A DNA stretch of 64,000 nt from Pseudomonas sp. UYIF39 (GTDB lineage: Bacteria; Pseudomonadota; Gammaproteobacteria; Pseudomonadales; Pseudomonadaceae), in contig NZ_JALBYU010000004.1 in the NCBI RefSeq assembly GCF_029963765.1, positions 248,001-312,000 of the forward strand, given 5' to 3'. The notes under the pieces are model-generated. The model ran no database searches, was not told the origin of the DNA, and saw only the letters and a list, made by a program, of their open reading frames with translations. Of this stretch, positions 27,229 to 46,300 are shown one piece after another (positions within the stretch are counted from its first letter, which is position 1; each line of letters opens with the position of its first letter). A program made the translations under genes and the position numbers.

Positions 27229-27263
27229 AACGCCCGATCAGCCTGGTTGCTGATCGGGCGTTT
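27229..27263 (+). terminator. Hairpin between the DUF932 gene and the YqaJ-like gene
   Basis: AACGCCCGATCAG and CTGATCGGGCGTT pair perfectly (13 bp) with an 8-base loop and a short T-run. It lies just before the ribosome site of the next gene, so it may attenuate rather than fully stop transcription. Confidence 0.75.
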
Positions 27264-27285
27264 CTATGTCCACAAGGAGAATGCT

Positions 27286-28287: not shown

Positions 28288-28374
28288 CCCATTCCACTTC
28301 AAAAAATCCCTCTTGGTCACCCATGCGGCGGTAGCTGTGTGGGCAGCCTTTCTTTCATTTCAAGGAGAGCCACT

Positions 28375-29283
28375 ATGCTCAAAGGTCTGGCTATTACCCC
28401 GCCAATACTCGGGCGTATTTCCATCGGCAAAGTCATCGAAAAGAACGGCAAACGCCTGCCGGAGAAGGATGACCAGTTCACCATCACTTCACAGGTGCAA
28501 GGTAAGGACGGCTGGCTTCTGCACCCGCTCAACGATGAGCTGCGTAAAGGTCAAGAAGACAAGCTACGCAGCATCCCGGTGCGCCTGCTGTTCAACGAAC
28601 CGGAGCTGAATTTCCGCGCCGACTACACGCTGTTTGATCGCCAGTCTGGCAGGCAGCTGTGCGTGGGCAATGGCGAGACCTGCAAGCGCGTCACTCAGGA
28701 CGGCATGCAATCACTGCCCTGCCCATCGCCTGATGCCTGCTCATTGGCCAAGGGTGGCGTCTGTAAGCCCTACGGCCGGCTGAATGTGCTGATTGGTGAT
28801 GATGATCCACTAGGCAGCTTCGTGTTCCGCACCACCGGCTTTAACAGCATCCGCACCCTGGCTGCTCGGCTTCATTACTTCCAAGCTATTTCGGGCAATC
28901 GGTTGGCCTGCCTGCCGTTGGAGCTGCGCCTGCGTGGCAAATCCACCCGTCAGAGCCATGGCACGCCGATCTTCTACGTTGACCTGACGGTACGTGGTGG
29001 CATCGACATGAGTGAGGCGCTGCGGGTTGCTAATGAGTTGGATGAACAACGGCAAACCGCTGGCTTCGATCAGTCCGCACTGGATGGGGCGGCACGCCGT
29101 GGTTTTAGTAAAGGCGCGTTCGAGGACAGCGAAGAAGATAGCGGCGCGGTGATTGAGGAGTTCTTTTCAGTCGAAGGCGGTGCTGAGCAGCCATCTTCCA
29201 AACCCATACAACAGCAATCAAGCAAACCCAGTCTGGCTGAAAAGCTTGAAAGCCACTGCCAGCAACAACCCCATAACACCTAA
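28375..29283 (+). CDS. Gp3-like recombination directionality factor / metal-binding protein
   Basis: 302 residues, start MLKGLAITPPILGRISIG behind AAGGAGAG. A cysteine cluster at about residues 95-130 (CVGNGETCKRV, CPSPDACSLAKGGVCKPYGRL) suggests a structural metal site. The family includes proteins annotated as phage gp3-like recombination directionality factors. The C-terminus is Ser/Gln-rich and low complexity. In this island it follows the YqaJ gene and precedes the radC-like gene, a set often repeated on Pseudomonas islands. Whether it directs this tyrosine integrase is unknown. Confidence 0.75.
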   Translation: MLKGLAITPPILGRISIGKVIEKNGKRLPEKDDQFTITSQVQGKDGWLLHPLNDELRKGQEDKLRSIPVRLLFNEPELNFRADYTLFDRQSGRQLCVGNGETCKRVTQDGMQSLPCPSPDACSLAKGGVCKPYGRLNVLIGDDDPLGSFVFRTTGFNSIRTLAARLHYFQAISGNRLACLPLELRLRGKSTRQSHGTPIFYVDLTVRGGIDMSEALRVANELDEQRQTAGFDQSALDGAARRGFSKGAFEDSEEDSGAVIEEFFSVEGGAEQPSSKPIQQQSSKPSLAEKLESHCQQQPHNT

Positions 29284-29311
29284 AACCGGCCAGCCGGCTA
29301 TGGAGCAAAAG

Positions 29312-29809
29312 ATGAAATTGCACAAGTTTAGAGCCGGTGAAGCCACTGGCACCTATCTGGTCGATTCACCTGTAAGCGAAGCCGACATCCTGCTGATGGC
29401 TCAGCAACTAGCCAGTCAGCGGCTGCGCCGTGGACGCTCACTGACCTCTCCCAAGGCAGTGTTCAACCATTTGCAGACGTTGCTGGGCGACTATGAGCAC
29501 GAGGTATTCGCTCTTCTTCTACTGGACAGCAAGCACCGGATTTTGACGTTTCAGGAGCTGTTTCGCGGCACTCTGGATGCGACAGGGGTTTACCCCAGAG
29601 AGGTCGTCAAGATTTGCCTGGAGTTCAACGCCGCCGCAGTGATCCTGGTTCACAACCACCCGTCAGGTGATCCGGAACCTAGCCAGGCTGACCGGACCCT
29701 GACTCGCAAACTTCAGGACGCATTGAACTTGATAGACATCCGCACGCTCGATCACATCGTGGTGGGCCGTGAGGGATGTGTTTCGATGGCTGATCGGGGG
29801 CATCTATGA
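29312..29809 (+). CDS. RadC-like JAB-domain protein
   Basis: 165 residues. The JAMM metal site is plain: HNHPSGDPEPSQAD, with the upstream Glu in the FQELFRGT segment. Proteins called RadC on mobile elements share this domain; the old link to DNA repair is doubtful and the substrate is unknown. I choose MKLHKFRAG because GGAG lies 6 bases before it. An ATG four codons earlier lacks a ribosome site. The stop overlaps the next start by 4 bases. Confidence 0.9.
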   Translation: MKLHKFRAGEATGTYLVDSPVSEADILLMAQQLASQRLRRGRSLTSPKAVFNHLQTLLGDYEHEVFALLLLDSKHRILTFQELFRGTLDATGVYPREVVKICLEFNAAAVILVHNHPSGDPEPSQADRTLTRKLQDALNLIDIRTLDHIVVGREGCVSMADRGHL

Positions 29810-29988
29810 AAACCACCATGCTGGCAATGCTAAAGCTACTTGGAACGCTGCTCGCGTTCGTCGGCATACTGGCCGGCTGCATCGTGGGGCTGTTACTAGT
29901 AATAGCAATGGTGCGTTTTCCACCACTACTGATTGCAGTGCTGCTGGCTTGCTGGATCTTCAACCGACTGCAAAGAAATATAAGCTGA
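29806..29988 (+). CDS. Small membrane protein
   Basis: 60 residues, almost entirely hydrophobic, with two likely transmembrane helices (TLLAFVGILAGCIVGLLLVIAM and LLIAVLLACWIFN). Its start overlaps the radC-like stop (ATGA), so it is translated by coupling. Function not recognised. The following 190 bases to the dprA-like stop hold no recognised feature. Confidence 0.6.
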   Translation: MKTTMLAMLKLLGTLLAFVGILAGCIVGLLLVIAMVRFPPLLIAVLLACWIFNRLQRNIS

Positions 29989-30179
29989 CTACTTCAATGA
30001 GTGAACTCCCAGCGTGAACAGCTACCAAGCTGTCCACGCTGAAGCGTCTGAACTTTTCTTTTTGCCTTTCGGGTCCTTATATTCCGCTGCTGCAGTGCCG
30101 GTATACATGCAGGTGATATCAGTAGCGAACTTAGTCTGCAGGAAAGTGCCGCTACGCACGTCCTCATGGGATTCGGCGA

Positions 30180-31526
30180 TCAATCGAGGCCGAGCCCCAT
30201 TTGACCGGCAGAAGCACTATCTGAAGTTGCGCGAGGTTGACTCTCAGCGTTCGAAACTTTTAGATGTTGGTAACGCACCGGTTTGGCTAATTTCTGTACC
30301 GCACCCTCATCGACTGATGTCTTAAGCCACTCTGTGATCTGCTTCTTGGGCAACTCCCATTGGGCAACCAGCTCATCAATCGTCGCTGCTCGCCCAAGGC
30401 GTTTCAGCTTCTCGAGGAAAAACTGATAAAAGCTCAACTCGGTAAGACCAAGAGGACTTTCAGCCGATGCTTTGGGTTTTTCCCGGGACGGGGCAGTTAC
30501 TAGTGAAGTTTGTAACTCTGTTTCTGTGCTGGTATGGCTCAGACTAGATAGCTCAACTTCCGTGGAAACAGCCTCGCTATCAAAAGTCCGTGGGGTTGTT
30601 GAATTAAGGGGCATAGACAAAGCTTGCACATCTAACTGCTCAGCCTCGCCATCCAACCATTGTCCACCTTCAGTCACGAGCATCCGATTACCGGACTGAG
30701 TATCCTGGTCTCTTTTTACCCAAAGAGGCACCCAAGCCTTTTTCAAATTTTCAATGGCCCCGCTCCAGGTTCCGCCCTTGATATCGGAACGAACCACAAC
30801 CGCAGCGCGACTCAGACAGTAAATGTACTTGTTACGGGCCATAGCATTGCCCGCATTGAAACCGGCCTCGGGATAGAACGGAGAAACCAGCACGAGATTG
30901 TTATTCATCAACCCCTGCCTCCATTTACTGGCCATTGCAGCTTTCAGCAAGCTATCCGCCATAACACCTATAACCGTGCCCTCTTGGATCAATCCGCCCA
31001 GCATCGCAGCCTCATCTACTCCGCGAGCACCACCGGAGACCACAGACTGCCCAGCAACAGCAATTCGTTTCCCCAATGCCTTGGCATAATCCAGATCAGC
31101 CTCGCTTGCATTACGAGCACCGACTACGGATACGCCACCCTGATTAAGCAAGCGCGCATTGCCGCATCCAAACAGCACAGGCGGCGCATTGTTTCGTAGC
31201 TGATGCTTAAGTAGTTTGGGGTAGTCGGCATCCGAGCGGGTTAGGACCCATATTCCCACACGACTCCATTTCTCCAGCGCCAGCGCCAGCGCATGACCAC
31301 GCCCAAGCAACTGCTCGATTCGCTCCAGCGAGATTTTGTCATCTTGCCATCCCTGTAACACCCCGCACGGCTCGGACGTAACCAGATCAGCGGGGGTCTT
31401 TCCCTGCTCATTGAGCCAGACTGCAAAGCGCCCCCACTCAGTAGGGGTAAGCGGCTTTGCGTCGCCTACTGACTTCGAGAAGTAGGAAGTCAGCAGCAGG
31501 ATGGACTGAGTCGTGGTATTGATCAT
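30180..31526 (-). CDS. DprA/Smf-like DNA-binding protein of the BREX island
   Basis: 448 residues. A Rossmann-like DprA domain spans about residues 100-290: VSVVGARNASEADLDYAKALG, VVSGGARGVDEAAM, GTVIGVMADS, ARNKYIYCLSRAAVVV and GGTWSGAIENLKK. A C-terminal winged helix (about 370-430, AATIDELVAQWELPKKQITEWLK) follows a low-complexity linker. Chromosomal DprA loads RecA on incoming single strands. This diverged copy overlaps the recQ-PRTase gene by 4 bases and follows the BREX operon, so I infer an accessory role in phage defence rather than competence. Confidence 0.85.
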   Translation of the reverse strand: MINTTTQSILLLTSYFSKSVGDAKPLTPTEWGRFAVWLNEQGKTPADLVTSEPCGVLQGWQDDKISLERIEQLLGRGHALALALEKWSRVGIWVLTRSDADYPKLLKHQLRNNAPPVLFGCGNARLLNQGGVSVVGARNASEADLDYAKALGKRIAVAGQSVVSGGARGVDEAAMLGGLIQEGTVIGVMADSLLKAAMASKWRQGLMNNNLVLVSPFYPEAGFNAGNAMARNKYIYCLSRAAVVVRSDIKGGTWSGAIENLKKAWVPLWVKRDQDTQSGNRMLVTEGGQWLDGEAEQLDVQALSMPLNSTTPRTFDSEAVSTEVELSSLSHTSTETELQTSLVTAPSREKPKASAESPLGLTELSFYQFFLEKLKRLGRAATIDELVAQWELPKKQITEWLKTSVDEGAVQKLAKPVRYQHLKVSNAESQPRATSDSASAGQMGLGLD

Positions 31527-33622
31527 GTCTTACTTGCCGTAGAGGAGATTGCTAGCGGATAAACCGGTCCACTGCCCACCCGCCGAAGCAGTGCAGCAAT
31601 AACCGTCATAGTCCAGCCCGAATCGATCATGTCATCGATCAATAATACTGGGCCGGAAGGGATGCTTTCGCTTACTGCGAACACCCCATCAAGATTTCGA
31701 CACTGATGGAAACGATTGTTCTGCCACTTTTGTGGCTCGTTTTTCTTGATCTTACTAATGCAGTCGACAAATGGGACACCCAGAGCAACAGCCAGCCTGC
31801 GAGCAAAATCAGGAACTAAGGTTGGATGCCCAAGGGAGGGCACGCAGCACACCCAAGCGGGCTCAGGAGTCGGCCGCCAGCGAGCTCGAATCATTTCGGC
31901 CATGGCCTGTACCAATGCTTCATCGAAATGTCCGTTGTCCTTGCCGTCTGCAGCCAGCTCTCCCCAACCACCATCGCGCCACTGCGAGAGTACACGCCCC
32001 TCATTCGCCTGCAGCTCCTGCGGCAGTCTGAACGGAAAGCCATATTGACGGAAAGCGTCCTTAGCGACTTCTTTCTTGGGTTTAATGGGGAGCTCAGCTT
32101 GCCGAATAAATCTTGCAGCCTCATGCACGAGAAGTTTGCTATCCACATCGGCGGGCACTAACGCTTTACCAATACAGTTGGCACATTTACCGCAATCCGC
32201 GTGTTCAGGGTCATCCAAAGCACTGCGCAAGAAAGCCATCAGGCAACGGGGCTCATCAAGATAGGCTTTGACCTGCAGCCACTCAAGCTCACGTAATTCA
32301 GTGAGTTGCTGAATACGATCCTCGTCCAAGTCGAAATGAATTGGAGTTCGGTACCATTTGCTGCCTCCCTTAATCAGCGGTGCAGGGTTTTCCACGCTGA
32401 GAATTTTAAGGATTTTTTCAATCTGCCCTTTGGCGAGATTGCTGTGCTCCTCCAACTCCCGGAGCGTCAGCCCATCGAAATCAGCAAGTACAGCCAGCAA
32501 GTGCCGAACTTGGCCAGAGGGAGGGAAAGCCGAACGCCGGAAGAAATCATGAATCTTCTCATCCTCGTCACCCGACATCAGCAGGCCCAGCGAATAATCA
32601 ATAGCACGCCCAGCACGTCCTACCTGCTGATAGTAAGCAACGATTGAGCCTGGTGCTTGGTAGTGGATGACAAAACCGAGATCCGGCTTGTCATATCCCA
32701 TGCCCAGCGCCGAAGTAGCCACCAACACCTTCATCTCGTTTGCCAGCAACGCATCCTCTAGATGCTGACGGTACTGGTCACTGTTGGCGAATTGCTGATG
32801 CGATACATCACTGTGATAGGCCGATGCCTGAATCCCCTTGGCCCGTAGCCAGCGCGCCACCTGATCGGCATCACGCTGAGTAAGGGCATAAATAATGCCT
32901 GTACCGGGCAACCTTGGAATATTCTCCGCCAGCCATGCCAGACGTGTCGCCTTATCAGATATTCGCAGATTCTGCAGCGCTAGACTTTCTCGCACCAAGG
33001 TACCGCGCACGATAGCGATATCACCAAACTGCGCCTGAATGTCTTTAACCACCCGGTCGTTAGCTGTGGCCGTAGTACCCAGCACCGGCGTATTGGCTGG
33101 GAGGAAACGCAGAATATTAACGATGCGCCGGTAGTCTGGCCGGAAGTCATGCCCCCAGTCCGAAATACAGTGCGCCTCATCAATCACCATCAGCCCAATA
33201 CGGTCAGCGATGGGCTGCAGGATATTTTCCATAAAGCCATCGTTCGCCAGTCGTTCCGGTGAGATCAATAAGCAGTCAACCTGATTGGCGAGTACAGCTC
33301 GGCGAGCCTGCTCCCACTCATGTGGATTGGTTGAGTTGATGGTGATCGCACAAATGCCAAGTCGGCGAGCCGCCTCTATCTGGTTACGCATCAGCGCCAG
33401 CAAGGGCGAGATGATAATCGTCGGCCCCTGCCCACGCTCGCGCAGGATGCGCGTGCTGATGAAGTAAACGGAGCTTTTGCCCCATCCTGTACGTTGCACA
33501 ACCAGCATTTTCTTGCGCTGGTTCACCAAGGCGTCAATGGCCTCCCATTGCCCGTCCCGGAACTTTGCGCCCTGATCGGCGATAGCGACTTTAAGGAGTT
33601 GTTCGGCTTCGTCTTGTTTCAT
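31523..33622 (-). CDS. RecQ-family helicase with C-terminal phosphoribosyltransferase domain
   Basis: 699 residues, start MKQDEAEQLLK at 33622. Helicase motifs are clear: RTGWGKSSVYF (Walker A), VIDEAHCISDWGHDFRPDYR, GTTATAND, and GMGYDKPD with QQVGRAGRA. A RecQ-type zinc site follows (CADCGKCANC pattern near residue 500, read as DCGKCANCIG). The C-terminal 170 residues form a type I phosphoribosyltransferase-like domain with VLLIDDMIDSGWTMT, the PRPP loop. The fusion couples DNA unwinding to a nucleotide-related activity. Cotranscribed with the dprA-like gene, 107 bases after brxL. Confidence 0.9.
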   Translation of the reverse strand: MKQDEAEQLLKVAIADQGAKFRDGQWEAIDALVNQRKKMLVVQRTGWGKSSVYFISTRILRERGQGPTIIISPLLALMRNQIEAARRLGICAITINSTNPHEWEQARRAVLANQVDCLLISPERLANDGFMENILQPIADRIGLMVIDEAHCISDWGHDFRPDYRRIVNILRFLPANTPVLGTTATANDRVVKDIQAQFGDIAIVRGTLVRESLALQNLRISDKATRLAWLAENIPRLPGTGIIYALTQRDADQVARWLRAKGIQASAYHSDVSHQQFANSDQYRQHLEDALLANEMKVLVATSALGMGYDKPDLGFVIHYQAPGSIVAYYQQVGRAGRAIDYSLGLLMSGDEDEKIHDFFRRSAFPPSGQVRHLLAVLADFDGLTLRELEEHSNLAKGQIEKILKILSVENPAPLIKGGSKWYRTPIHFDLDEDRIQQLTELRELEWLQVKAYLDEPRCLMAFLRSALDDPEHADCGKCANCIGKALVPADVDSKLLVHEAARFIRQAELPIKPKKEVAKDAFRQYGFPFRLPQELQANEGRVLSQWRDGGWGELAADGKDNGHFDEALVQAMAEMIRARWRPTPEPAWVCCVPSLGHPTLVPDFARRLAVALGVPFVDCISKIKKNEPQKWQNNRFHQCRNLDGVFAVSESIPSGPVLLIDDMIDSGWTMTVIAALLRRVGSGPVYPLAISSTASKT

Positions 33623-33729
33623 AGTGAAAATCCTTTTCTTGGGAAAATTTCCTGGGAACAATTCATTTATTCAATGCACTCTGACTGCCGATACGCCCAG
33701 ATTCATGTCTGGCTTGTTCGACACCGAAC

Positions 33730-35778
33730 CTACTCAACAATCGCCTTCAACAACGCATCACGTGCATCCTGGTAGAACTGGATGTCGATCTTCGTTGCCA
33801 TGTCATCAGACAAGTCGTACAGCTGGCGCCTAGCGGTTACCGGCATTAGCAGCGCACTGGCTCCCTTTTCAACTGCCAGTTCAGCGATATTTACAGCGCT
33901 GCTGATCGGTTCGATGGAGCCACCCAGGTTGATTTCGCCGACTACGATCAGACCGCCCTTTACCGATTTTTTCAGCAGGCTGCTGCACATGGCAATCAGC
34001 GCTGCCATGCCTAGCTTGGAACCACGCTTAGCGGCGTCAAAGCCTCTGAGTTGCACGGAGAATTCGTGGGCACGTGGGTCGCGGTCACCAATGAGCTGAG
34101 TTGCCCTGGAATACAGATTCTGTTCTGCATAGCGCAATGACTCTTTGAAAGCTGCAGGTGCCGGGTTATTGAGAATACGCACACCAGAGCCTGGGCCTTC
34201 ATTCACCTCTATGCGATAGAGACCAGCATTATCGTCAATGTCGGCACCGCCTTCGCTGATAGCCCAGATTTGGCCTGGTTCCAGTGGATCATCACCAATT
34301 TCGTTGTTAGCGCGCAGCTCCGGTGTGGCAACAAACTTCTCCACACCGTCGGCGCCAATGAAATAGCTAAAATGCGTGTTGCGGAACTCGGCAGCACCGA
34401 CGCGCTTTTGCTGTTCTTTGACCCGTCGGCGCACCTCCAGCCCCAGACGGGTTGCCCACTCAAGATCTTCGTCGGAGACAGCCATTTCCTGATCCGGGTA
34501 CATCAGCTTGAGCAGACCTGAGACGGTCTTGTTAACCGCGTTGGTGTCTCGGCCACTCAGCGCCCCACCTAAGTGAACGCGATTCTGCATAGCGGACACA
34601 CGGCTCTGAAAACGCAAGCGGCTCATGCATTCGGAGAAAAAATCACTGACCAGACCAAAATGGTCGGTGGTCAGATTTTTATTCATTTTGGGCACATCCC
34701 AGCCAGGCAGGTAGCAATGGATGCGATCCATCCAGGCCGTGTCGTCACGCATTTCCGCGGGCAGCGGGCCAAACAAATGGCCTACGCGCTGCTGATGCTC
34801 TACATCGACATCGAAGTTACCGACAAACACCATGGAGCCATCGGCTCGAATGCTTTCCTTGCCACGGCTGAACTCGCCGGACTCCATGTAGCCCTTCATA
34901 ATGTTTATCCCTTCCTTGGTGTCGAAAGAGATGCCGCTGACCTCGTCAAAGCAAACGACGTCGTACTGACAGACCAAGCCGCGCTGGCCGTTGGCATTGT
35001 TCACAAACATTTTGGCGATGGTGGCTTTGCCGCCGGAAATCAGGTGGGAATAAGGCGAAACTTGCTGGAACAAGTGACTCTTACCTGTGCCACGCGGCCC
35101 AAGCTCAACCATGTTGTAGTTGCGTTCAACGAACGGAACCATCCGGAGTAGGATGGCGTCCTTGGCACGCTGTGAGAGCTCACTTGGCTCCAAACCGATC
35201 GAGCGAACCAGAAAATCCCGCCACTCTTCGCTGCTGAATTGAGTTCGTGCCTCGGCCATTACATCCAGCACATTGCGATTGGACATCTGGATGGGGCGCA
35301 ACTCGGCAATACCGAAGGCGTTGCCTTTCTCTTCCGCAATGACGCTGTCGTACGTTAACGTCACCTCAGCATAGAAGCCCCCGGTCAGCAGACGCTCGTT
35401 ATCGTCGACAACTTTATCTGGGATGCGAACTCGGCTGAGGTTCAAGCTGGGTAGCGAGGCAAGGTAGCCACCTTCTTTTTCAACAAAGCGCACGCTGACA
35501 ATATCGATCAGTTTGGCCGAGCCCGTTTTATACGCGCGCGCCTTAAACAGTTCCTCCTCGCCAGCACGCACAGTGCGATCCGAGAGCTGTCGCTGGACGA
35601 TCTCCAACCCCTCCTCAATTTCAACAGGATCGGTAGATGCGCAGTACCTGCCCAACATAAATTCGACAACATAGGTCGGAACCGGGAATTGGCGGGCAAA
35701 GGTCCTAACCAGATCTTTGCGCACGATGTAGCCTTCAAAGGTCGAGGCCGCTTTGTTATCCAATAAATCCAATTCCAC
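33730..35778 (-). CDS. brxL: BREX system Lon-like ATPase/protease BrxL
   Basis: 682 residues. A conserved N-terminal domain (LFKARAYKTGSAKLIDIVSVRF) precedes an AAA+ module with Walker A GPRGTGKSH and a Walker B in YDVVCFDEVSGI. The Lon-type C-terminal domain follows (GSKLGMAALIAMCSSLLK ... GEINLGGSIEPI). In characterised type I BREX the protein forms DNA-binding rings and is needed for phage exclusion but not always for methylation. It starts exactly where pglZ ends and is the last of the canonical operon genes. Confidence 0.95.
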   Translation of the reverse strand: MELDLLDNKAASTFEGYIVRKDLVRTFARQFPVPTYVVEFMLGRYCASTDPVEIEEGLEIVQRQLSDRTVRAGEEELFKARAYKTGSAKLIDIVSVRFVEKEGGYLASLPSLNLSRVRIPDKVVDDNERLLTGGFYAEVTLTYDSVIAEEKGNAFGIAELRPIQMSNRNVLDVMAEARTQFSSEEWRDFLVRSIGLEPSELSQRAKDAILLRMVPFVERNYNMVELGPRGTGKSHLFQQVSPYSHLISGGKATIAKMFVNNANGQRGLVCQYDVVCFDEVSGISFDTKEGINIMKGYMESGEFSRGKESIRADGSMVFVGNFDVDVEHQQRVGHLFGPLPAEMRDDTAWMDRIHCYLPGWDVPKMNKNLTTDHFGLVSDFFSECMSRLRFQSRVSAMQNRVHLGGALSGRDTNAVNKTVSGLLKLMYPDQEMAVSDEDLEWATRLGLEVRRRVKEQQKRVGAAEFRNTHFSYFIGADGVEKFVATPELRANNEIGDDPLEPGQIWAISEGGADIDDNAGLYRIEVNEGPGSGVRILNNPAPAAFKESLRYAEQNLYSRATQLIGDRDPRAHEFSVQLRGFDAAKRGSKLGMAALIAMCSSLLKKSVKGGLIVVGEINLGGSIEPISSAVNIAELAVEKGASALLMPVTARRQLYDLSDDMATKIDIQFYQDARDALLKAIVE

Positions 35779-38097
35779 TTATTCGCCTCCTACTAGCGTC
35801 GGTAGCTTCGCTAAAACGTTGCCTTGCTCATCCAGCAGCACCAGCACGGCGGACGTATGCTCGTACTGGTCATCCAACATCAGGCTGCACTTCCCATCTT
35901 TTAGGGGCTTGCGCTTACTTATTTCAGAGCCTGCATCGGCCGCATGCGTTCTGAGCACCGCCATCACCGACTCGGATGCAGTCTGCGCCTGGACCTTGCA
36001 CGTGAGCCCAAGCCAACGCAGATCAGAAAGCGTGGCTGAGGTGGTAGCGCTCGTGGCGGGACTCTGCGTACTGCGAACTTCAATTACCGGCGTCAAACAT
36101 TCCTGCAAGCTCAGACCACCGTGGTCGTAATGTTGTCCGGCTTTGAAGCTACAGGCGCCTGGGGCCATGGCGATGCTGACAGCGCTGTTCCAGTACCAAC
36201 CGACCTGCTGATAACCACTATCGACAGAGTCTTTGATAACCGCACAGCGGCCCCAGCGAGTTTCAGTTAAATGCTTGGCCAGTTCGACCTTGGCCATAGG
36301 TGCAGGGGTCAGCATCCAACCGTGGTCGGTGACGATACGGATCTTGCGCCAACCTGCAGCCAGAAGTTCCTCAACCCGCTCCTGCACCTCGGCCAGCAAG
36401 GTATCAATCCGGGCAGCCAGCTTTAGACCTTTTACATGACCTTCTTTGTCGATATCGCCGCTTTGTACCCAGGCATTGGAAGTCGGGTCGCCCGAATCCC
36501 CCTCTTCCAAATACTGCCAGCCTTTTTCCTGCAAAAACTTCTTCAGGTAGTAGCTAGAGAAATCCGTATCGTTGTCCAGTAAGCTGGGCTCAAAGTCGCG
36601 GTCAGTGGTTCTGCCGGTCAGGCGATCATGCACCGGTGTAATCGCCGCTTTAGATGTTGCGGTTACCGAAGGCAAGGCCGCCCAAGTTGCCGAGAGCCGC
36701 ACATCACCCAAGTGCCGCAGCGCCTGATTCAGTCTCTGGGCAATGTCGTAACGCAGGCCGTCGACAAAGAAAACCACCTCGCCAGCCACCGCATACTCAG
36801 CTGTGGCTTCATTGACCTGGTTGCTGCCCGGATACCCCTTCGACCGGACCAAGCCTTGGAAATTGCGTGTCACCTCATCCAGCCATGGCGTGTAAATCAG
36901 CGCTAGAACTTGCTGCACCAGCACTTGTTGGCGCGCCGGTAATGGGCAAGCCAAGGCTTTGAGTACCTGATTGTCTGCCTGCCAGTATTGCTCCCGGTAC
37001 TGCACGGCCATTTCATCCGCATCAGAACCTGAAAACACCTTGGCCGTTTTTTCAGCCACCTGGCTCAAATGCCTAAGCGCGCCGGCCAAAGGAGCCAGAT
37101 CAAGCTCTGACCATACCCAACTGCGCCGCTTAGCATGTCGCTGCTCCAGAGTCTTAAGGCTCTGCCGGGCCTTATCGCATCCTTCTCGCAACAGTTGCTG
37201 GAGTGATAGTTCGAGATCTTTCTCTTCACTGGCATTGATAGCCGGATAGCTAGCGCCATCAGCAGCAAGATCCGGCTGCACTTTCAGCAACAACTCCGGT
37301 AAATGCGGGTAATGCTGACAAGACTCGGTGTAGCGCTGCCAAACACTGTGCCAAATACCCTGATTCTGGCACAGCAGCTCGGCAGCGGTTAGCACACCGT
37401 CTTGTTCAGGGCTGAAGTGATACTCGGTTTCACAGATCCCGGCCAGGGCCTGCCAACGCGAGGCATCCCAGCGCTCACGGCAGCTCTTGCTGTCATTCAT
37501 CCAACTGAGCAGATCACGCACCGGGTCGCTGCTCACCAGCTTATTGAAGTCTGCCGCCTCTAGGCGTCGGTTGCTCAGTTCTTCGCGCTCATTTTCAAGA
37601 ATTTCAGGCAGAACACGCAGCATGGCCTGTTGGGCTTTTTCGTCTTTGGCCACATCCAGTCCTACGCCACCGTTAATAGAAACCAGGAAGGCATTCACCG
37701 TCCAGTCTCGACCTGAGTTGCTGTAAATCCACCAACACCCTCGATATTGCAGCTCAGCTAGCGGCTTAAGGGCATCCGGACAGGAACCAATAGCGCGCAA
37801 GTCGCGGCGCTCCACGCCGGGCAAATACACTATCGGAGTTCGATCAGACGGCAATACAATTTCAGGTAAAACGCCATCGACCACACACTTGATCCAAATA
37901 GCCGGCCCGGTCTTTTTCTGAGGCGCATAGTCACCCAACACGATCAGCTCCGGCATCGCAGCCTGTAATAGAGGCAGTGCGGGCGCCCACTGGCACAGCT
38001 TGTCTGTCCAGAGGATCACGCTGGGCGCGACTTGCACATTGGTGTTGTAGGCTGCGCTTCCGCGGATCTCGGTGGCCAGCAAATCGATCAGTTTCAT
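35779..38097 (-). CDS. pglZ: BREX phosphatase-like protein PglZ
   Basis: 772 residues with an alkaline-phosphatase-superfamily domain in the second half. Marks are VVFFVDGLRYDIAQRL (metal Asp), WAALPSVTATSKAAI (active-site Ser/Thr region) and IVTDHGWMLTP (Asp-His metal ligands). The first half is helical. PglZ is essential in BREX and probably bridges PglX and the other components. Its length and sequence suggest the shorter type B of the BREX-1 PglZ proteins, which I cannot verify. It abuts brxL. Confidence 0.93.
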   Translation of the reverse strand: MKLIDLLATEIRGSAAYNTNVQVAPSVILWTDKLCQWAPALPLLQAAMPELIVLGDYAPQKKTGPAIWIKCVVDGVLPEIVLPSDRTPIVYLPGVERRDLRAIGSCPDALKPLAELQYRGCWWIYSNSGRDWTVNAFLVSINGGVGLDVAKDEKAQQAMLRVLPEILENEREELSNRRLEAADFNKLVSSDPVRDLLSWMNDSKSCRERWDASRWQALAGICETEYHFSPEQDGVLTAAELLCQNQGIWHSVWQRYTESCQHYPHLPELLLKVQPDLAADGASYPAINASEEKDLELSLQQLLREGCDKARQSLKTLEQRHAKRRSWVWSELDLAPLAGALRHLSQVAEKTAKVFSGSDADEMAVQYREQYWQADNQVLKALACPLPARQQVLVQQVLALIYTPWLDEVTRNFQGLVRSKGYPGSNQVNEATAEYAVAGEVVFFVDGLRYDIAQRLNQALRHLGDVRLSATWAALPSVTATSKAAITPVHDRLTGRTTDRDFEPSLLDNDTDFSSYYLKKFLQEKGWQYLEEGDSGDPTSNAWVQSGDIDKEGHVKGLKLAARIDTLLAEVQERVEELLAAGWRKIRIVTDHGWMLTPAPMAKVELAKHLTETRWGRCAVIKDSVDSGYQQVGWYWNSAVSIAMAPGACSFKAGQHYDHGGLSLQECLTPVIEVRSTQSPATSATTSATLSDLRWLGLTCKVQAQTASESVMAVLRTHAADAGSEISKRKPLKDGKCSLMLDDQYEHTSAVLVLLDEQGNVLAKLPTLVGGE

Positions 38098-38128: not shown

Positions 38129-39922
38129 TCATGTCGCGGTAACCACCAACGGATACTTCCCCAGCACCTCTTGCACCAGCTGCTCCGTCCTCGCCTTCAG
38201 CTTCTCCACGGTCCAACTGCTCTCAGTAGCCAGCGCTTGGTTCAAATAGAGGCCGTTGTTGTAGCCCACCTTGCGGCCTTGGCTATCAGCCCGGCTCTTC
38301 TTCTCATCAAAGCTCTTGTTGCCCAGTGCACTGTTGTAGCCAGAAATAGTAAGGTTGCCCAGGCAATGGGCGTAAGTCTGGCGGTGTTGCTCGGCCAAGC
38401 TAGCATCGCCATAGGCAATCATCTGTACCCAACAGCTGGGGATGTTTTCGCCCTGGGGGAAGATATGCTCGATGGTCCAGACGTACTGCTTGCCTTTCAG
38501 AACCCACAAATCGACCTGGGTTTCGCGGGTCATGCGGCTTTCTTCAAGGGCGCAGAGCACAAAGCGGCAGACCGCTTTGTTGTCCTCGTAGATAGGACCT
38601 TTGAGGCTTTTCTCGAACTGCTCATCACTGGCGCTATCGGCTTTGAGCCTGTGCTGAATATGACTGACCACATCGCCAGCACGCAGCGCCAGGATCGCCT
38701 CAGCCACATCCATGAAAATACGGGTCAGATCACGGGTAGGCGGCAGGTCTGTCGTGTTGCGGCGAACAAAGAAGGCAATCAAGAAGCCCACAATCTGTTC
38801 CAGGTGTTCTTGTTGCAGCTCCAACTCGGTTTGCCGCTCCATCAGCACCATCAGCAGCAGATAAGCAGCGGCACCCTGGATACGATCCAACGAGAGCAGC
38901 AGGTTGGAAAGCTTGGGCTGATCTGGCACTGCACGGTAGCCAACAATCTGAGCATAGCTGTTGGACAGACGAATCATGGCATGCAGAAAGCCCTCGGCAT
39001 TATGCGCGATCAGCTTTTCATACACCTGCATTAGGTTCGACTTGGTAGCCACCGGTACTGAAATGACATCCTTCAAATCGGGTTTGAAGGCGTTGTAATA
39101 CTGGCGGAAGAAGCGCTCCTGCACGGCGTAGTCATCACCCAGGGCGTCAATCACCTTTTTCCAACGGTTGTACTGCTTGTCGATGCTGCCAGGGTCTTTG
39201 GACTCCAGCACTGCCAGTAACTTGTTCTTGATCAGGTCAATAGCCGTCAGCGGTACACCGCGATTGTTCAGCGACTCGAACAGGGTATAGGCATCGGAAT
39301 GCCCGGCGACCTCGATCTTAACCAGAGTGGCGGTGTTAACTTTTTCCAACAGGGCCTGCAAGCTGGCAATGGGGTCAGCGCAGTGCTCCAGGTACAGCTC
39401 AATGCGGCTGATAAAATGCCGGAAGGCTTTCATCACTCGCCGGTTTCCGGCATTCGGCACAGTCTCCACATCGTCCAAAATGCCGGTTTGACCGAGCACC
39501 GCGAAGTAGTCCTGTTGGTTGTTGTTCTGCACCTGAGGGATCAGGCGTGGCTGATCCGACTTTTTCTTCAGCACCAGTTTGTGCTTGAGGTTGTACAGCT
39601 CAATCTGCTGTTCCATGCCCAGATTCGGCAGGGTGCGGTAGCTCTGATAGACAGCCGCCAGCAGCAAAGATAGCGTTGTCATACGCTGTTGTCCGTCGAC
39701 CAGCTCCAGGCTTTGCACCGTCAGGGCATCTTGCGACTGGTTAATGCAGATGATCGAGCCGAGGAAATAATGCAGCTCGTTGTCCAACAGATCTTCGAAC
39801 AGCGCATCCCACTGCGCCCGGCTCCAAGTGTACTCACGCTGGTAGCGCGGGATGGCATAAACCACCCCGCTCTCGATATCGAGCAGGGTGGAAACCGGGT
39901 AGTTGTAAACGGACTTGATCAT
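38129..39922 (-). CDS. brxU: GmrSD-type (type IV) restriction enzyme BrxU
   Basis: 597 residues joining DUF262 and DUF1524. The N-terminal DUF262 has IPRYQREYTWSRAQW, YFLGSIICI and the nucleotide motif ELVDGQQRMTTLSLL. The C-terminal DUF1524 has the HNH-like WTIEHIFPQGE and LGNLTISGYNSALGNKSF. Such enzymes cut DNA with modified bases such as glucosylated hydroxymethylcytosine. The same gene position, between pglX and pglZ, is known for brxU in the Escherichia fergusonii BREX plasmid island. It would cover phages whose modified DNA escapes BREX. Confidence 0.92.
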   Translation of the reverse strand: MIKSVYNYPVSTLLDIESGVVYAIPRYQREYTWSRAQWDALFEDLLDNELHYFLGSIICINQSQDALTVQSLELVDGQQRMTTLSLLLAAVYQSYRTLPNLGMEQQIELYNLKHKLVLKKKSDQPRLIPQVQNNNQQDYFAVLGQTGILDDVETVPNAGNRRVMKAFRHFISRIELYLEHCADPIASLQALLEKVNTATLVKIEVAGHSDAYTLFESLNNRGVPLTAIDLIKNKLLAVLESKDPGSIDKQYNRWKKVIDALGDDYAVQERFFRQYYNAFKPDLKDVISVPVATKSNLMQVYEKLIAHNAEGFLHAMIRLSNSYAQIVGYRAVPDQPKLSNLLLSLDRIQGAAAYLLLMVLMERQTELELQQEHLEQIVGFLIAFFVRRNTTDLPPTRDLTRIFMDVAEAILALRAGDVVSHIQHRLKADSASDEQFEKSLKGPIYEDNKAVCRFVLCALEESRMTRETQVDLWVLKGKQYVWTIEHIFPQGENIPSCWVQMIAYGDASLAEQHRQTYAHCLGNLTISGYNSALGNKSFDEKKSRADSQGRKVGYNNGLYLNQALATESSWTVEKLKARTEQLVQEVLGKYPLVVTAT

Positions 39923-39925
39923 AGG

Positions 39926-42900
39926 CTAGCTCCTTGCCGCCTGTTTTTCCGCCAAGGACAAATGGTGATCATTGATCCGGGCACCCTCGCCTTCGTCGTA
40001 TTGCAGGCCGAGGGTGTACCAGGGGGCGGATTCGACGTCTTTGCCGCGGTCTTTGGCCCATTTGATGTTGGGCATCCAGCGCAGAATGCCCGCACCTTTT
40101 TTGCCGACACTGCGAGCGTTCAGGAATGGGCGGATGTTGAGGCGCACGCCGTCGTTTAGGTCAGGGGTCCAGCCGATGGGTTGTTCGGCCTGGGGCTTCC
40201 AGCGCACGAAGATATCGTAGGGTGCTTCGCCTTCGAGGATAGCTTCAAGCTCGTGCTTGAGCGCTTCGGCAGCAAGCAGCCGTTCCTGAGCCCCGTCTTC
40301 TCCGTTGGCCATGCCGGCTTGCTGGGTGCGGATCCAGTCACCTAGATAGGTGTAGATCAGCCGTTCGAGGCCGGACTTGTCGAGTTTGTGGTAGTTGACC
40401 AGGGCGCTGAAGCCGTCTTTGAGTCCGTCCCAGATGTGCCAGATAAATGGCCGGTGCTGGAACATTTTGCAGTGCTGTTCGAAGAACTTATCGCGTAGCC
40501 ACAAGCTGAGGGATTTGCTGCCGACGGTTTCCAGCAGACGGTTTTTCAGGGGCGTGGTCCAGGCACTGCCGTAGGCGGCTTGCAGCAGAGCTTCCAGGCG
40601 CTGGTCGGCGGCTTTTTCGCCGCGCACTGCGGGCAGGCAGACTATGCCATCGTCGTCCACATAGGCATCCAGTGCCTGGCAGCTCTTTACCCACTCACGT
40701 TGTTCTACGGCCAGATCCATCTCTCCATCCAACTCCGCCGGCCAGCGGTAGCCAAGCAGACGGGAAATCGCAACTTGCAGCACGCTATCATCAACACGCA
40801 GTTCGCCGTGGGCAGTCCACTTGGCCTGCTCGTCCCAGATAACCGAACCGCAGGGGTGGCCATGGAAGATCCATTGGGTCGAGTCATTGGTATATGCTTG
40901 AGGTAACCCATTGGGATATCGCTCTTCGGCAATGCGAGCCCAGTAATCAAGATCGAAAGGAACCTCTGCTACTGTAGAGGAAGAAATTGCTAAATTTGGA
41001 TTAGCATTTCTAAGGTTCTTTAGATATTCGTCTGATTCGCAATAAGCCCAAATTGCAGGAAGATCACTCTCATTTTTAGGCACGATCACAGCAAGATTTT
41101 GATCAAAAATAGAGCCACGATAGATCGTTCGAACTATGTTGCCCATTCTAGATGCGGAAACACCCATCTTACCCCATGCATCTTGCCCAGTTTTCCACCT
41201 TTGAGCAGCTGAGTTAAGATGTTTCATACTCAGCACAAACTCATAGAGCGACCCTTCCCCCTCCTCCCAAAGTATCGCTTGAGAAAATCCACCGCAGTGC
41301 GATGTTCTCTCCAAAGACCCATGAAGAAACTCATAGTTTGGCTTCAGATTTTGAACTTCCCAAATCGCTCTATAAAATCTCAGACTATCGCCTGTGGCGA
41401 CACCAGCAAGGGCAGAGCTGAAATCTTCCAGGCTCTCTACTCCGCTTTCCTCCTTCATCAATATTGGGAAGTCTTTAGTTGCCACCACAGCATCATGCCC
41501 AACCAATGCAAAATTACGACCTATCAGTCCGCGAGCCTTCAACTGAACAGAATTATCCTCAGACACATCTATCGCAGAGTACTGCGAGCCGCAACTTTTG
41601 TTTGAATTCACAACAATGGTTAAGCTCGCATTGACAACTTGACCAGAAATTGTTTCAAATGCACCAGTGCCCAACCTTACGCATGAGCGCAGAAAGTAAT
41701 TATTAACTAAACGTTCTCGAAAGCTCTTGTAGGAGCTCAAGTAATGCCATGTTTGTGGCGTGACAATTGAAGCAGCACCTCCAGGGCACAACAGGGCCAA
41801 GATTCTAGACATCATGGCTACCGCTAAGTCGAACCGCTCATCATAATGATACTTCTCCAAGTAACTCAGCAAAATATCATTCTGTTTTCTTGTTGCCAAA
41901 AATGGAACATTCGTAAGGATGAGTGAATATTTCTCCGCCAACAATGACGTCGCTTTAAAAAGCCCTTTGGCAACTACCCCCATCTCTGAATATTCGTCAC
42001 TTTTTTCATTCGCCAACGCTTTAGTTAAGAGAGGGCCAACTTCTTGCCACTTTAATTCGAAAAGAGAACCTTTACCCAGACTTAATTCCGGATTAATCAA
42101 GCTGCCGAGCACTGGCGCATCTTTGAAATGTTCATAAATCTCGCCAAGAACGCCCCTCAGATCACTAATATCTTGAGCCAGTAACAACCACTCCTCTTTA
42201 GAGGTGCTAATCGCCAGACCAGAGCAAGCCAAATGCAGCTCGGGTAATGGGCGGTAACCACCTGCGTTCGAGTAACGCCACGCTTCCAGCGCTACAGCAA
42301 AGGCTGCCAACTCCACACAGCGCTGATCCAACTCCAGGCCATGCAGGTTCTCACTCAGCACACGGTCAATAGCTTGTTGGGCCATGAGGTTTTCGGCCTG
42401 CATGCGCATGGGTACCAGCATCAAGAAGGCAGCGACCAGAAAGTGGCCTGAGCCACAGCACGGGTCGAGGGCTTTCAACTCACTCAGCTGTTTGGGCCAT
42501 GCATCGAAGGTGCCGGAGGCGGGTTTCCATTGCTGGGTTGTCTCATCTTGAACAAAGCGCAGAAAGCGCAAAGGCACGCCCGGGATGGCGGCTTTGTCGC
42601 GCAGTTCCTGTTCGCTATTGGCGTGCTGCCAGTCGCTGTCACTCAGGCGCTGCCCGGCCCACCATGCCCCTAGACTGTTATCGAGCAGAAAGCTGACCAT
42701 ATAGGGTTCGGTAAACAGCTGGGTCACCGGCGAAAGCTCGTCGGCACCGATCTTCACTTCGGACTTGTTGACTTCTTCTTTGCGCTTGCTCTGCCAGAAC
42801 TGATAAACCCAGCCAAGGCTGTCCTGGGCCTGGAAGGTTTCCAGGGCCAGGCCAATCACCAACTGCTCCAGGCTACGCTGGTGCTCAGGGGCAAACTCCA

Positions 42901-43387
42901 GCTCGAACACCGGCGAGTCGATGCGGAAGATCTGCGGTAGCATCTTGGAGGCCAGCACCCCAGCCAGCTCCCAGCCACTTTGACAGTGGCGTTCCAGTTC
43001 GTCGCGAGCCACATCCGGGTCTTGCACCAGCTCGGTACATTCGGCCAAGGTCAGCGACGTGTGCTCGTCATACATAAGTAGACTGTTCTGCTCCAGAAAG
43101 CGCGCAAACAGCATGCGGTGCCAATGTTCGTAGGCGACTTCGGTGACAAGCTTGTAGATAGATTGCTGGCCGTTGGCATCTTTGCTATCACCTAGCTGAC
43201 GGCCATGAGAGCGCAAGCGGGTGCGCAGCTTGCGCTGCTCATCGCTCAGGTAGTCAGCCGGTTTGGCATCACCTACGCCCAGTCGTTTTAGAGACTGGGT
43301 GGCAGCCTGTTCGGCGATGTCGCGGGCTCTGACAACGGTGGTTTCCAGGGTACGGCGTAGGGCTTTGTCGAGGGGCTGTCGAATCAT
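39926..43387 (-). CDS. pglX: BREX adenine-specific DNA methyltransferase PglX (BrxX)
   Basis: 1153 residues, standard for BREX type I. It would methylate one adenine of an asymmetric host motif and is the specificity subunit. Methyltransferase motif I is LDPCCGSGHFLVAAF (about residue 310). Motif IV reads LTNVPFLATRK (about 500) instead of the textbook NPPY/F. The target-recognition part follows. The segment from about 42190 down to 40870 (residues 400-840) is clearly AT-richer than the rest, suggesting exchange of the specificity region. It overlaps the brxC stop by one base, and brxU follows after 3 bases. Confidence 0.95.
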   Translation of the reverse strand: MIRQPLDKALRRTLETTVVRARDIAEQAATQSLKRLGVGDAKPADYLSDEQRKLRTRLRSHGRQLGDSKDANGQQSIYKLVTEVAYEHWHRMLFARFLEQNSLLMYDEHTSLTLAECTELVQDPDVARDELERHCQSGWELAGVLASKMLPQIFRIDSPVFELEFAPEHQRSLEQLVIGLALETFQAQDSLGWVYQFWQSKRKEEVNKSEVKIGADELSPVTQLFTEPYMVSFLLDNSLGAWWAGQRLSDSDWQHANSEQELRDKAAIPGVPLRFLRFVQDETTQQWKPASGTFDAWPKQLSELKALDPCCGSGHFLVAAFLMLVPMRMQAENLMAQQAIDRVLSENLHGLELDQRCVELAAFAVALEAWRYSNAGGYRPLPELHLACSGLAISTSKEEWLLLAQDISDLRGVLGEIYEHFKDAPVLGSLINPELSLGKGSLFELKWQEVGPLLTKALANEKSDEYSEMGVVAKGLFKATSLLAEKYSLILTNVPFLATRKQNDILLSYLEKYHYDERFDLAVAMMSRILALLCPGGAASIVTPQTWHYLSSYKSFRERLVNNYFLRSCVRLGTGAFETISGQVVNASLTIVVNSNKSCGSQYSAIDVSEDNSVQLKARGLIGRNFALVGHDAVVATKDFPILMKEESGVESLEDFSSALAGVATGDSLRFYRAIWEVQNLKPNYEFLHGSLERTSHCGGFSQAILWEEGEGSLYEFVLSMKHLNSAAQRWKTGQDAWGKMGVSASRMGNIVRTIYRGSIFDQNLAVIVPKNESDLPAIWAYCESDEYLKNLRNANPNLAISSSTVAEVPFDLDYWARIAEERYPNGLPQAYTNDSTQWIFHGHPCGSVIWDEQAKWTAHGELRVDDSVLQVAISRLLGYRWPAELDGEMDLAVEQREWVKSCQALDAYVDDDGIVCLPAVRGEKAADQRLEALLQAAYGSAWTTPLKNRLLETVGSKSLSLWLRDKFFEQHCKMFQHRPFIWHIWDGLKDGFSALVNYHKLDKSGLERLIYTYLGDWIRTQQAGMANGEDGAQERLLAAEALKHELEAILEGEAPYDIFVRWKPQAEQPIGWTPDLNDGVRLNIRPFLNARSVGKKGAGILRWMPNIKWAKDRGKDVESAPWYTLGLQYDEGEGARINDHHLSLAEKQAARS

Positions 43388-46300
43388 CAGAAGGTCACCG
43401 GTCCATCATTGAGCTTGTCGAGAATCTGTTGTTTGACTTCAGTCAGCCAAGTGTCGACATCGGACTCTGTCTCAAAGGTTTTGCGTGGCAAGCTGATGCG
43501 CTGCAGTTTGGGCTGCAGCAGCTGCACGGCCTCCATGCGCGCGTTATCGAATTTATTGGCCAGCGATTCGGTGCGATCGGTCCACTGCTCCAGGCTGACG
43601 TCATTGAGGCTGTCGATAATGGCCTCGGCGTCGTTAAGCGCCGGTTGCGCCAAGGTAAGCAGTTTACGTTTGCCGAGGATGTCGCTCTGTTGCTGCTCGC
43701 TGAGTTGCAGCCAGTGACTGTCGGCTTGCAGTTGGGCCAGGTACTCGGCATACCGATCCTGATAGGCCTGCACATGGAACTGGATGGCATCGCGCAGCTT
43801 ATTGACCAACTGCTGGACCAAGCCAGATACCGGATTGGGATCATCCAGCAAAGACCGGTGGCTGACTATGGCATCCACCTCGGTCTGGATAGCGGCATGG
43901 AAAGACAAACCACGACTGAGGTCGAGCAGGCTTTTGAGCAGCGCCCAATCACTGCGCCGTGCTTCGATGCGCAGGGCAGTGGCGGCCCATTCCTTGACCG
44001 CCTTTTTGATCGCATCTTGCTCATCCAGTACATGCTTGAGTTGTGCGTTACCGGAGTGGCGCGCCAGCTCGTCGAAAATACGGCTGTCGGGGATTTTCGG
44101 CAGAGGGGCTTCCCCCCCGGCGCGCTTGGACAGTTCACGGCCTTTTTCAGCTAGAAGTGGCAGCTTGCTAGCTTCTTCACCGGGCTGACAATCGATGCCG
44201 CTGCTGCTGAGTACACCGCGTATTTTGATCAGATCTACAGGGCGGATGGTGATGCTTTCCGGCTTAAAGCTGGTTTGGGTGATCTGCTTGCGATCCAGCG
44301 TTGTGGCGGTAACCATGTTATTGCGGTTGTCGTAGGCGATGAGAATGCCGGTGGCCATCAGAATGGTGAGGCCTCCGTCGATGGCGTCCTGCGGCCAGCC
44401 GTATGGGGCAGCCAGAAAGTGCTCACGAATCTCGTTACCTTTTTTCGACACACCGATATAGCGCTTAATGGCAGCGCACACGGGCTGCTGCTCGGCATCA
44501 CCGCTGTAGCTCAGTGCTTCCAGGGCATTTTGCCCACCCTCTTTGCTGGCGCGGTCATACACCTTACCCCAGCCGGTATGGTCAGCGGCATCGAAGTCGC
44601 GGTAGAGGCGAATTAGCGAGGCTTTAGCCGCAGTTTCTACCCGGTCGGCAATCGTGTTGCCGTCTACTTCGTTACCACCGGCTTGAAGCACTTGCACGCC
44701 GTCGAAAATTTCGCGCAGCAGTGCTTGTACCTGCTTTTGCGCATCACGGTAGCGGGTTTCCATGGCGCTACGGGCATCTTTGCCGGCATCGGTATTGGGG
44801 ATGCCGCGTTTTTCCAGAGTGGCATGAGCGGCGTTCTCAGTAATGATCGCGCTGGTCAGCTCGGATCGGTTGCGCGCTGGTACAAAGACGAAAATAGTCG
44901 GCTCGCCCGGCTGGCGGCTGCGTGCATCGGCAAAGAAGCTCTTTTCATCAATACTCCAGCCGTCCTGTACCCAGGCGTAGACTTTTTCTTTAGCGTCTTT
45001 GGGCAGCTCGGAGTCAAAGCAAGGGATAACCTGGCGCGGCTCGTTGCACTTGCCCTGGGTGAGACGCACCTGGGCTACCTGGCGGCGCAGTTCTTTGTGC
45101 AACAGGTCTACGCGGATATTTTCGATACGTTGCATATTGCCGCGCAGGTCGGCTTCTTCCTGTCGAAGAGTGTCGTACCACTGCGCACTCTCCTGAGTTT
45201 GCAGGCGGAACTCAGTGCCGATGCTGGTTTGCATAGGCATAACCAGGCCTTCGTCGGCCAATACCTGAAGCAGTTTGGGCACACTGGTGCGAATGGAATC
45301 TTTGCCGTTATTGAGGTCATCAATGAGCAGGTCAGCCAGCATGTCGGCGGTAGCCCGCACCCCGCAGTCAGCAGTCGGATCGGAAGGCAATTTACCGATC
45401 AGCAGCACCAGACCGAGAATGCGCGACTTGAGCTTATCGTCAGCATCGCCGGCGGACAGGCGACCAATGGTTTCGGCAATTTCTTTGGAGATAACGCCGG
45501 TCTGCAGCAGATTGACTGCGATCTGGTTGTAAATGAAGTCAGCCGGCACCACATGGCCCAGCGGCAGGTCGGCGGTGGCCTGGGCGGCTTCGTGAATGAC
45601 CTTGAGCTGGTTACGCAATTGCGAGACGGTCCCAGTGGTATCAACGATACGCAGCACCCGCTCCCAGAAGCGGCGGCGTACCGGCAGCAGCGGGTAATCG
45701 GCCAGCATGACTTTTTCGTCATCCTGGTGGTGCTCGATTTTGGTGCCGCGCAGCTGACGTGAAATCTCGCCCAAGTGTGATTGCAGTACCTGCTCCAGCT
45801 GCGGCTTGGCCGAAGCTTTTTTCTGCAGGATGACCTTGCGGATCACCGACTCGACATCGGTATCGGACAACTGAATCGGAATCTGGAAACGGCCAAGCAG
45901 GCGCTGCAAATTAGGCATGCCGGACAGAGCACTTTGCCCTGTGGCGACAAACAGTAACTTGTTCTGAAAGACCGAATGCTTGCAGCAGGTTTCTACCACC
46001 TCCTGGACCTGGTGCGCCTTGTCGGTATCGGAGCCGACATATTGTTGCACCTCATCGAGTACCACCAGGGTGAGCGGGAACTGGCCTTCTTTGGCTAGGG
46101 CGTCGTAAATAGCATCGACCATCTGCTGGTTAGTGACATCCTGAACATTAGGGTACTGCTCGCGCAGAAGCTGACGCACCTCTTTGACGTCGTTACCCAG
46201 GGTGCTGTCCACCTCAAGCAGAGCTCCAGCGATGCTACGGGAAACGTAGAGGTCTTCCAGCTCGTCGTCCCAACTGTCACCTGCTGTTTCGACCTTGGCT

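Follow-up and report, generated by a model that had tools for sequence, protein, structure and literature searches.

A PsyrTA gene pair behind a BREX operon of Pseudomonas sp. UYIF39, and the recurrence of such pairs inside methylation-based defence operons

The PsyrTA pair of Pseudomonas syringae was reportedly described by Sberro in 2013. DprA homologues are the antitoxins of shosTA, 'syrTA' and rqlHI, and a pair made by DprA and a phosphoribosyltransferase (PRTase) protects against T7 and lambda (Rousset et al., PMC9122126). A pair of this kind was analysed in a window (the whole stretch of DNA under study) of 64,000 nt from Pseudomonas sp. UYIF39, corresponding to positions 248,001-312,000, forward strand, of NZ_JALBYU010000004.1. 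The two genes, psyrT and psyrA, are located directly downstream of a bacteriophage exclusion (BREX) operon of type I (33730-49127, minus strand), and have the same orientation. PsyrTA recurs inside methylation-based defence operons of several types (BREX, type I restriction, Hma, Druantia-like), yet nesting is not the rule.

Most of what is known on the activity of these proteins comes from E. coli. RqlH is genotoxic in the absence of RqlI; deletion of the PRTase domain, or mutation of D663, abolishes the effects on growth and on the SOS response, and in the D663A mutant filamentation disappears as well, a modest loss of viable counts being retained (PMC4670107). RqlI co-precipitates full-length RqlH, not RqlH devoid of the PRTase, and the helix-turn-helix (HTH) region of RqlI is dispensable (PMC4670107). 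No fitness cost was detected upon deletion of both rqlH and rqlI in the same work, as far as covered. Helicase-PRTase proteins and the accompanying DprA have been likened by Iyer et al. to the competence proteins ComFA and ComFC (PMC5512222), and ShosTA is listed among the systems activated by the single-stranded DNA (ssDNA)-binding protein (SSB) of phages (PMC10732053). The pair is known and its function unsettled: no cost of deletion was detected in E. coli, one DprA-PRTase pair is protective, and an overexpressed PsyrTA was not.

By profile matches, the RecQ-PRTase and DprA-like pair of the window is the described PsyrTA (RqlHI); the family is known, and this member of it is ordinary. The PADLOC PsyrT model aligns over positions 3-687 of 689 (E 1.8e-300) to residues 14-711 of the 712 aa product obtained from an alternative TTG start at 33661, which is also open, and the PsyrA model over positions 3-395 of 398 (E 5.6e-159). 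The toxin gene precedes the antitoxin gene and overlaps it, the arrangement typical of PsyrTA and RqlHI. Pfam domains recognised in PsyrT are DEAD, Helicase_C and, marginally over the cut-off (28.3 vs 26.3 bits), Pribosyltran; PsyrA features DNA_processg_A (138 bits). Related families were rejected. PsyrA is not a canonical DprA (NCBIfam TIGR00732, 91.8 bits vs a cut-off of 191.15), and PsyrT is neither a canonical RecQ (TIGR01389, 268.3 vs 640.2 bits) nor the DpdF protein of the Dpd system (NF041063, 152.9 vs 550 bits); it passes the cut-off of the broader RecQ subfamily TIGR00614 (234.8 vs 219.8 bits). Membership in ShosTA was rejected because the PRTase of PsyrT is fused to helicase domains, and PsyrA scores 527 bits on the PADLOC PsyrA model vs 84 on ShosA. 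A stronger DprA-family match (249 bits, vs 141 for PsyrA) resides on another contig of the host genome, which also carries other RecQ-like genes.

Functional motifs are intact. In an alignment of 44 PsyrT proteins, the window's included, K49 of TGWGKS and D148/E149 of DEAH are invariant, as are D663 and W670 of the phosphoribosyl pyrophosphate (PRPP) loop LIDDMIDSGWT, in which D664 and T671 are almost so. The PRTase region matches adenine PRTases weakly at the sequence level (E 0.015), and the loop tryptophan occupies the position of a glycine in the matched enzyme. The AlphaFold model of PsyrT (mean predicted local distance difference test score, pLDDT, 90.9) has a predicted helicase fold of the RecQ family, superposing to BLM over 396 residues (Z 40.9, root-mean-square deviation 2.3); the lists obtained by structure search (Foldseek, VIA) were filled by helicase matches, and did not reach the PRTase part. 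The PsyrA model (pLDDT 86.3) is confident except for a linker and the C-terminal end, and resembles both DprA (3maj) and ShosA (8zva), an antitoxin. Its predicted winged-helix-like tail is made by three helices and two short strands, and exceeds a pLDDT of 90 across most of its length.

A sequence-only reading of the same DNA had described a RecQ helicase ending in a PRPP loop, overlapping by four bases a DprA-like gene with a winged-helix tail, behind BREX. All these features were recovered, and the loop residues on whose retention in homologues it relied are conserved; the module is of a defence type, as it held, and its identity with a described toxin-antitoxin pair had been missed. The 4-base overlap suggests coupled translation, not the fixed stoichiometry that had been deduced from it, and the modification of nucleotides that the same reading proposed is likewise putative. 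The psyrT gene starts 107 bp behind brxL (68 bp from the TTG codon), and a promoter-like site was not found in the gap by a scan which is weak evidence.

Comparison with three related BREX islands shows that psyrTA is a discrete cassette. The operons are similar at the DNA level over most of their length, identity ranging from 85 to 94% in L209 (a Pseudomonas veronii plasmid record), 82 to 85% in L211 and 76 to 82% in L210 (loci are denoted by L numbers). Homology ends at 33728-33731, at the end of brxL, and is regained at 29961-29975, short of radC; the exact positions differ by island. Most of the segment found in the window only is psyrTA. In all three sister islands radC directly follows brxL, on the opposite strand, at 367, 370 and 289 bp. 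PsyrT is found in 11 of 398 genomes of the genus (12 loci), and BrxL in 17; at a PsyrT threshold of E 1e-150, the two coexist in the window's own genome only, vs 0.47 genomes expected (P(>=1) = 0.39). Because the sister islands and 16 of the 17 BrxL genomes lack the pair, psyrTA was rejected as a core part of BREX. Of the earlier picture, in which the module acted beside BREX, the association of helicase, PRTase and DprA fold next to the operon and the accessory, non-core distribution were borne out; a specific tie to BREX was not, as the survey of co-occurrence that it had proposed gave the figures just reported.

Five further BREX loci carry psyrTA within or behind the operon, at positions which vary. 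The pair is flanked by pglX and a DUF262 gene, and pglZ and brxL come behind, in an Acinetobacter plasmid; in L132 it separates brxC (accompanied by a Schlafen-like gene) from pglX, and in L072 pglX from pglZ; it stands immediately behind brxL in L067, and behind a GmrSD-like gene in L077, the BREX locus of Clostridium nigeriense, in which pglZ lies downstream and a Fic-domain gene (13165-14298) separates psyrA from pglZ. In type I restriction loci the order M-S-psyrT-psyrA-R was observed on one plasmid and two chromosomes of E. coli, and again in Providencia (L040); a near-identical E. coli pair is present in 53 of 5426 genomes, the context of which was examined in one plasmid and two chromosomes only. 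In E. coli ES2 (NZ_CM184352.1, L145) two places match the E. coli psyrTA, and the one examined is within type I restriction genes. Type I genes adjoin the pair, or are found close behind it, in L031-L033, L045, L061 and L063; in L045 a type I-like methyltransferase is located two genes behind psyrA, and three more genes downstream lack Pfam matches.

Other operons are of different types. L038 has the order HmaA-PtuA-PtuB-HmaB-psyrTA-HmaC, and thus both Septu (PtuA, PtuB) and PsyrTA are nested in a single Hma operon (1532-16291). L037 features genes of similar sizes, and from these and a DPPY motif is probably an Hma locus too, PADLOC having been run on L038 only. In L053 the pair is flanked by a DUF1156 gene and a DUF499 gene. 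In L030 (1-20000) one same-strand run includes a type IIG-like methyltransferase, an AriA-like ATPase (best match HEC-01A), a DUF4276 gene, psyrTA and a DruE-like giant protein of 2120 aa.

The frequency of nesting was measured in runs, meaning series of genes on one strand with gaps of no more than 250 bp, as called by a simple gene caller, and short contigs can hide contexts. The methyltransferase motif scored was [DNS]PP[YFW]. In the genus sample a gene with the motif was found in the run at 5 of 12 psyrTA loci, or 6 of 12 when the window's BREX, whose PglX carries NVPF, is added. The 12 include L035 and L036, in which psyrT is broken or shortened, and three near relatives (L031-L033); L024, in which psyrA is split, was not counted. 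Gabija loci of the same genus sample were motif-positive in 0 of 30 cases; these are the best 30 of 49 matches (44 genomes), in L205 and L206 a 220-aa gene only was called, L198 and L204 reach the contig end, and several look like near relatives by gene size. Fisher's p was 0.00018 (6/12), 0.00093 by motif alone (5/12), and 0.0023 with the three related type I loci counted once (4/10). These values are to be read knowing that the Gabija set, as the set of solo PsyrT described below, was scored by motif, while the window was counted on the PsyrTA side for its known BREX. Similarly, the BLAST references for BREX and type I genes derive from PsyrTA loci, a bias in favour of these, and were not applied to the Gabija loci.

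In a species collection, PsyrA is present in 39 of the best 80 PsyrT relatives. Nested pairs were 7 of 39 by motif (L037, L038, L040, L045, L053, L070, L077; the contig of L037 also appears in the genus sample, as L027) and 10 of 39 after classing. The latter dropped L070, in which the motif gene is nine genes off, and added by BLAST and hidden Markov model (HMM) matches L061 (HsdS adjacent), L063 (HsdR adjacent), L067 and L072 (BREX genes); an HsdR-like match further off in L057 was not counted. None of 39 assessed PsyrT loci lacking PsyrA was motif-positive (p 0.012 by motif, 0.0010 by classing). These derive from 41 solo loci, L082 and L110 being excluded, are largely actinobacterial, and some are perhaps solo only through a contig end. 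In a phylum sample, PsyrA was found in 14 of 398 genomes, one being the window's; four of the other 13 (L140-L143) were set aside, as the stretch fetched had no match to PsyrT, and of the 9 remaining pairs 1 was nested.

PsyrT proteins were arranged in a tree of 74 rows obtained by a quick method, 11 solo loci included. The figures count label changes (gains or losses), not gains. For the six rows linked to BREX the count is six, at least five of the changes being forced by well-supported branches, and their clustering does not exceed that of shuffled labels. The count is four for type I rows, and two for rows of Hma or DUF499. Closest to the PsyrT of the window are four copies, two linked to Hma and two with no link. 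Given this scatter, and these relatives, psyrTA lineages seem to move between host systems rather than to have evolved together with BREX.

The cassette behind brxL is likely to be of the toxin-antitoxin type, and probably acts by abortive infection. By analogy with the published relatives, the PRTase would be needed for toxicity, and PsyrA would be an antitoxin contacting PsyrT physically. PsyrT would join a PRTase toxin to a RecQ-like helicase, which probably brings the PRTase to DNA and would also help to restrain it; PsyrA, which has a DprA fold and an overlapping start, would bind PsyrT, restrain the PRTase, and is the probable sensor. We infer that a phage replicating past BREX would generate DNA intermediates (ssDNA or ssDNA-SSB, either of which a DprA fold may sense), by which the restraint would be lifted. 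The freed PRTase would then damage DNA or nucleotide pools, the cell would stop, and the pair would form a second layer behind BREX. Of the 11 P. aeruginosa strains with PsyrTA in one panel, 81.8% were phage-resistant, a correlation only (PMC10855318).

Several data weigh against this reading. The genome-level co-occurrence of PsyrT and BREX in the 398 genus genomes is at chance. Two chromosomal E. coli pairs lie between gntU and yhgN, and their flanks of 8-9 kb contain no annotated defence gene. The E. coli PRTase domain is not toxic on its own, and the K49A and D148A mutants of RqlH cut viable counts, an effect not rescued by RqlI, and the helicase is therefore more than a carrier (PMC4670107). 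PsyrTA from E. coli NILS69, when overexpressed, slowed growth and did not detectably protect against phages; the better plating of some phages is attributed by the authors to a low density of cells (PMC12409345). In metagenome-assembled genomes PsyrTA is under-represented in defence islands, and when found inside them co-localises with other systems (PMC10924106).

Among the alternatives, the one which survives best, and is still unlikely, views the pair as an addiction module, i.e. a selfish toxin-antitoxin pair that retains the island or the BREX operon and has no direct role against phages. The genetics would be identical, the pair is accessory and forms a discrete segment, and the island apparently starts beside a tmRNA gene and a tyrosine integrase. 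The NILS69 experiment (PMC12409345) agrees with this view, and protection by PsyrTA itself is undemonstrated in the literature covered; the related DprA-PRTase pair, however, does protect against phages (PMC9122126). Mere stabilisation would not require a placement as specific as nesting in methylation-based defence operons, nor does it account well for the E. coli copies located between chromosomal genes.

Improbable, given the accessory distribution of PsyrT (11 of 398 genus genomes), is a role in DNA repair or processing, whereby the PRTase would make a nucleotide or a mark and the DprA-like partner resolve it. It follows the model proposed by Russell and Mulvey, in which a nucleotide that RqlH has altered is resolved by RqlI (PMC4670107), and is in line with the RecQ and DprA folds, and with the lack of a PsyrA match in the stretches fetched for 41 of the best 80 relatives, some of these stretches ending at contig ends. 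The double deletion without detected cost in E. coli (PMC4670107), and the presence in the host of other DprA-family and RecQ-like genes, argue the opposite. That the pair is a dedicated BREX component working solely with BREX proteins, for instance as an effector, is most improbable: it is set on the same strand close behind brxL, and five further BREX loci carry it, but 16 of 17 BrxL genomes and three sister islands do without it, its place in the operon varies, and BREX-linked PsyrT form no lineage (six changes for six rows).

The toxin-antitoxin cassette acting in abortive infection remains the preferred explanation, and a further step can be taken tentatively. PsyrTA may be a plug-in backup or guard of methylation-based defence, lineages having been captured at differing operon positions because the RecQ-DprA pair would fire on DNA intermediates, or on anti-restriction events, once a phage gets past. 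Such a plug-in role is plausible, and PARIS with Ocr, and PrrC, are analogues of guard behaviour. The recurrence of psyrTA inside these operons is the surprise of the analysis. If repeated capture is real, the missing trigger of psyrTA may be the failure of the host defence system, and tests of the isolated pair could have overlooked its activity. In BREX, modules added in or beside the core locus, such as PARIS-like and GmrSD genes, have been described as backup effectors forming a second layer; the main text mentions neither RecQ, DprA, PRTase, phosphoribosyl nor Psyr (PMC12839542). A figure legend names restriction-modification (RM) and PsyrTA among the systems carried by GInt elements in E. 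coli, and the E. coli RM-PsyrTA neighbourhood may already be drawn there (PMC10121019). In a literature search including few subscription journals, and bioRxiv largely outside it, no statement of recurrent PsyrTA nesting in methylation-based operons was found in the parts of the papers covered.

The genes of the BREX operon are listed in Table 1. The GmrSD-family gene occupies the position of BrxU, and the WYL regulator is brxR-like. PglX carries at about residue 493 NVPF in place of the usual NPPY/F of motif IV, motif I (DPCCGSG) being intact; since NVPY is found in the matching context of PglX in the three sister islands, the change looks like a trait of a subfamily rather than decay. The middle of pglX (40964-42208, about aa 393-808) has no DNA match in the three sister operons, otherwise 76-94% identical, and may be a swapped target-recognition region. 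A tmRNA gene followed by a tyrosine integrase is located at 19306-21140, and the island seems to start at the 3' end of the tmRNA. The other attachment site was looked for as a second copy of this 3' end, and was recovered neither in the window, by exact words of at least 14, nor in the genome, with up to one mismatch allowed. Plasmid- or phage-like genes (DUF932, YqaJ recombinase, Gp3-like, RadC) reside at 26178-29809, at the psyrTA end of the operon. A 670-aa HATPase_c_3 protein (23577-25589, minus strand) and a 605-aa neighbour with no Pfam match (21519-23336) are possibly another defence pair.

Table 1. Coordinates in the window of psyrTA, its parts, and flanking genes
Feature	Position	Strand	Remarks
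psyrT (rqlH-like), RecQ-like helicase with C-terminal PRTase	31523..33622	-	699 aa from ATG
helicase part, ~aa 1-490	32153..33622	-	alignment of 44 and structure model
C-terminal region with PRTase domain, aa 500-699	31526..32125	-	Pfam Pribosyltran 28.3 bits
PRPP loop LIDDMIDSGWT, aa 661-671	31610..31642	-	alignment of 44
ATGA overlap, psyrT stop / psyrA start	31523..31526	-	4 bp
psyrA (rqlI-like), DprA-like antitoxin (putative)	30180..31526	-	448 aa; PADLOC PsyrA
winged-helix-like tail of PsyrA, aa 366-421	30264..30431	-	predicted
psyrTA cassette between brxL and radC	29967..33727		~3.76 kb; unmatched in the DNA of three related BREX islands
brxL	33730..35778	-	
pglZ	35779..38097	-	
GmrSD-family type IV restriction enzyme	38129..39922	-	BrxU position
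pglX methyltransferase	39926..43387	-	
brxC	43387..46851	-	
brxB	46917..47462	-	
brxA	47455..48234	-	
WYL regulator	48234..49127	-	brxR-like
radC-like gene	29153..29809	+	flank adjoining brxL in relatives

The likeness of the window pair to PsyrTA of Pseudomonas syringae rests on the near full-length matches to the PADLOC PsyrT and PsyrA models. A DprA-like antitoxin and a PRTase toxin are shared with ShosTA, and PsyrA resembles the solved ShosA (8zva); ShosT is a PRTase without helicase, and PsyrT differs from it by its helicase. On E. coli chromosomes, copies with the 698 aa published for RqlH match the closest of three reference PsyrT at about 60%. The two such copies examined sit between gntU and yhgN, and are presumably the F11 gene, whereas the window copy is found behind BREX in an island. 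RqlH-RqlI of extraintestinal E. coli has in common with psyrTA the toxin-then-antitoxin order, the RecQ-like helicase joined to a PRTase and the DprA-like partner with an HTH, and the residues mutated in RqlH (K49, D148, D663) carry the same numbers in PsyrT (PMC4670107). The backup effectors of BREX and BREX-related systems are nucleases in the part of the paper covered, and psyrTA resembles them in its placement at the core locus (PMC12839542).

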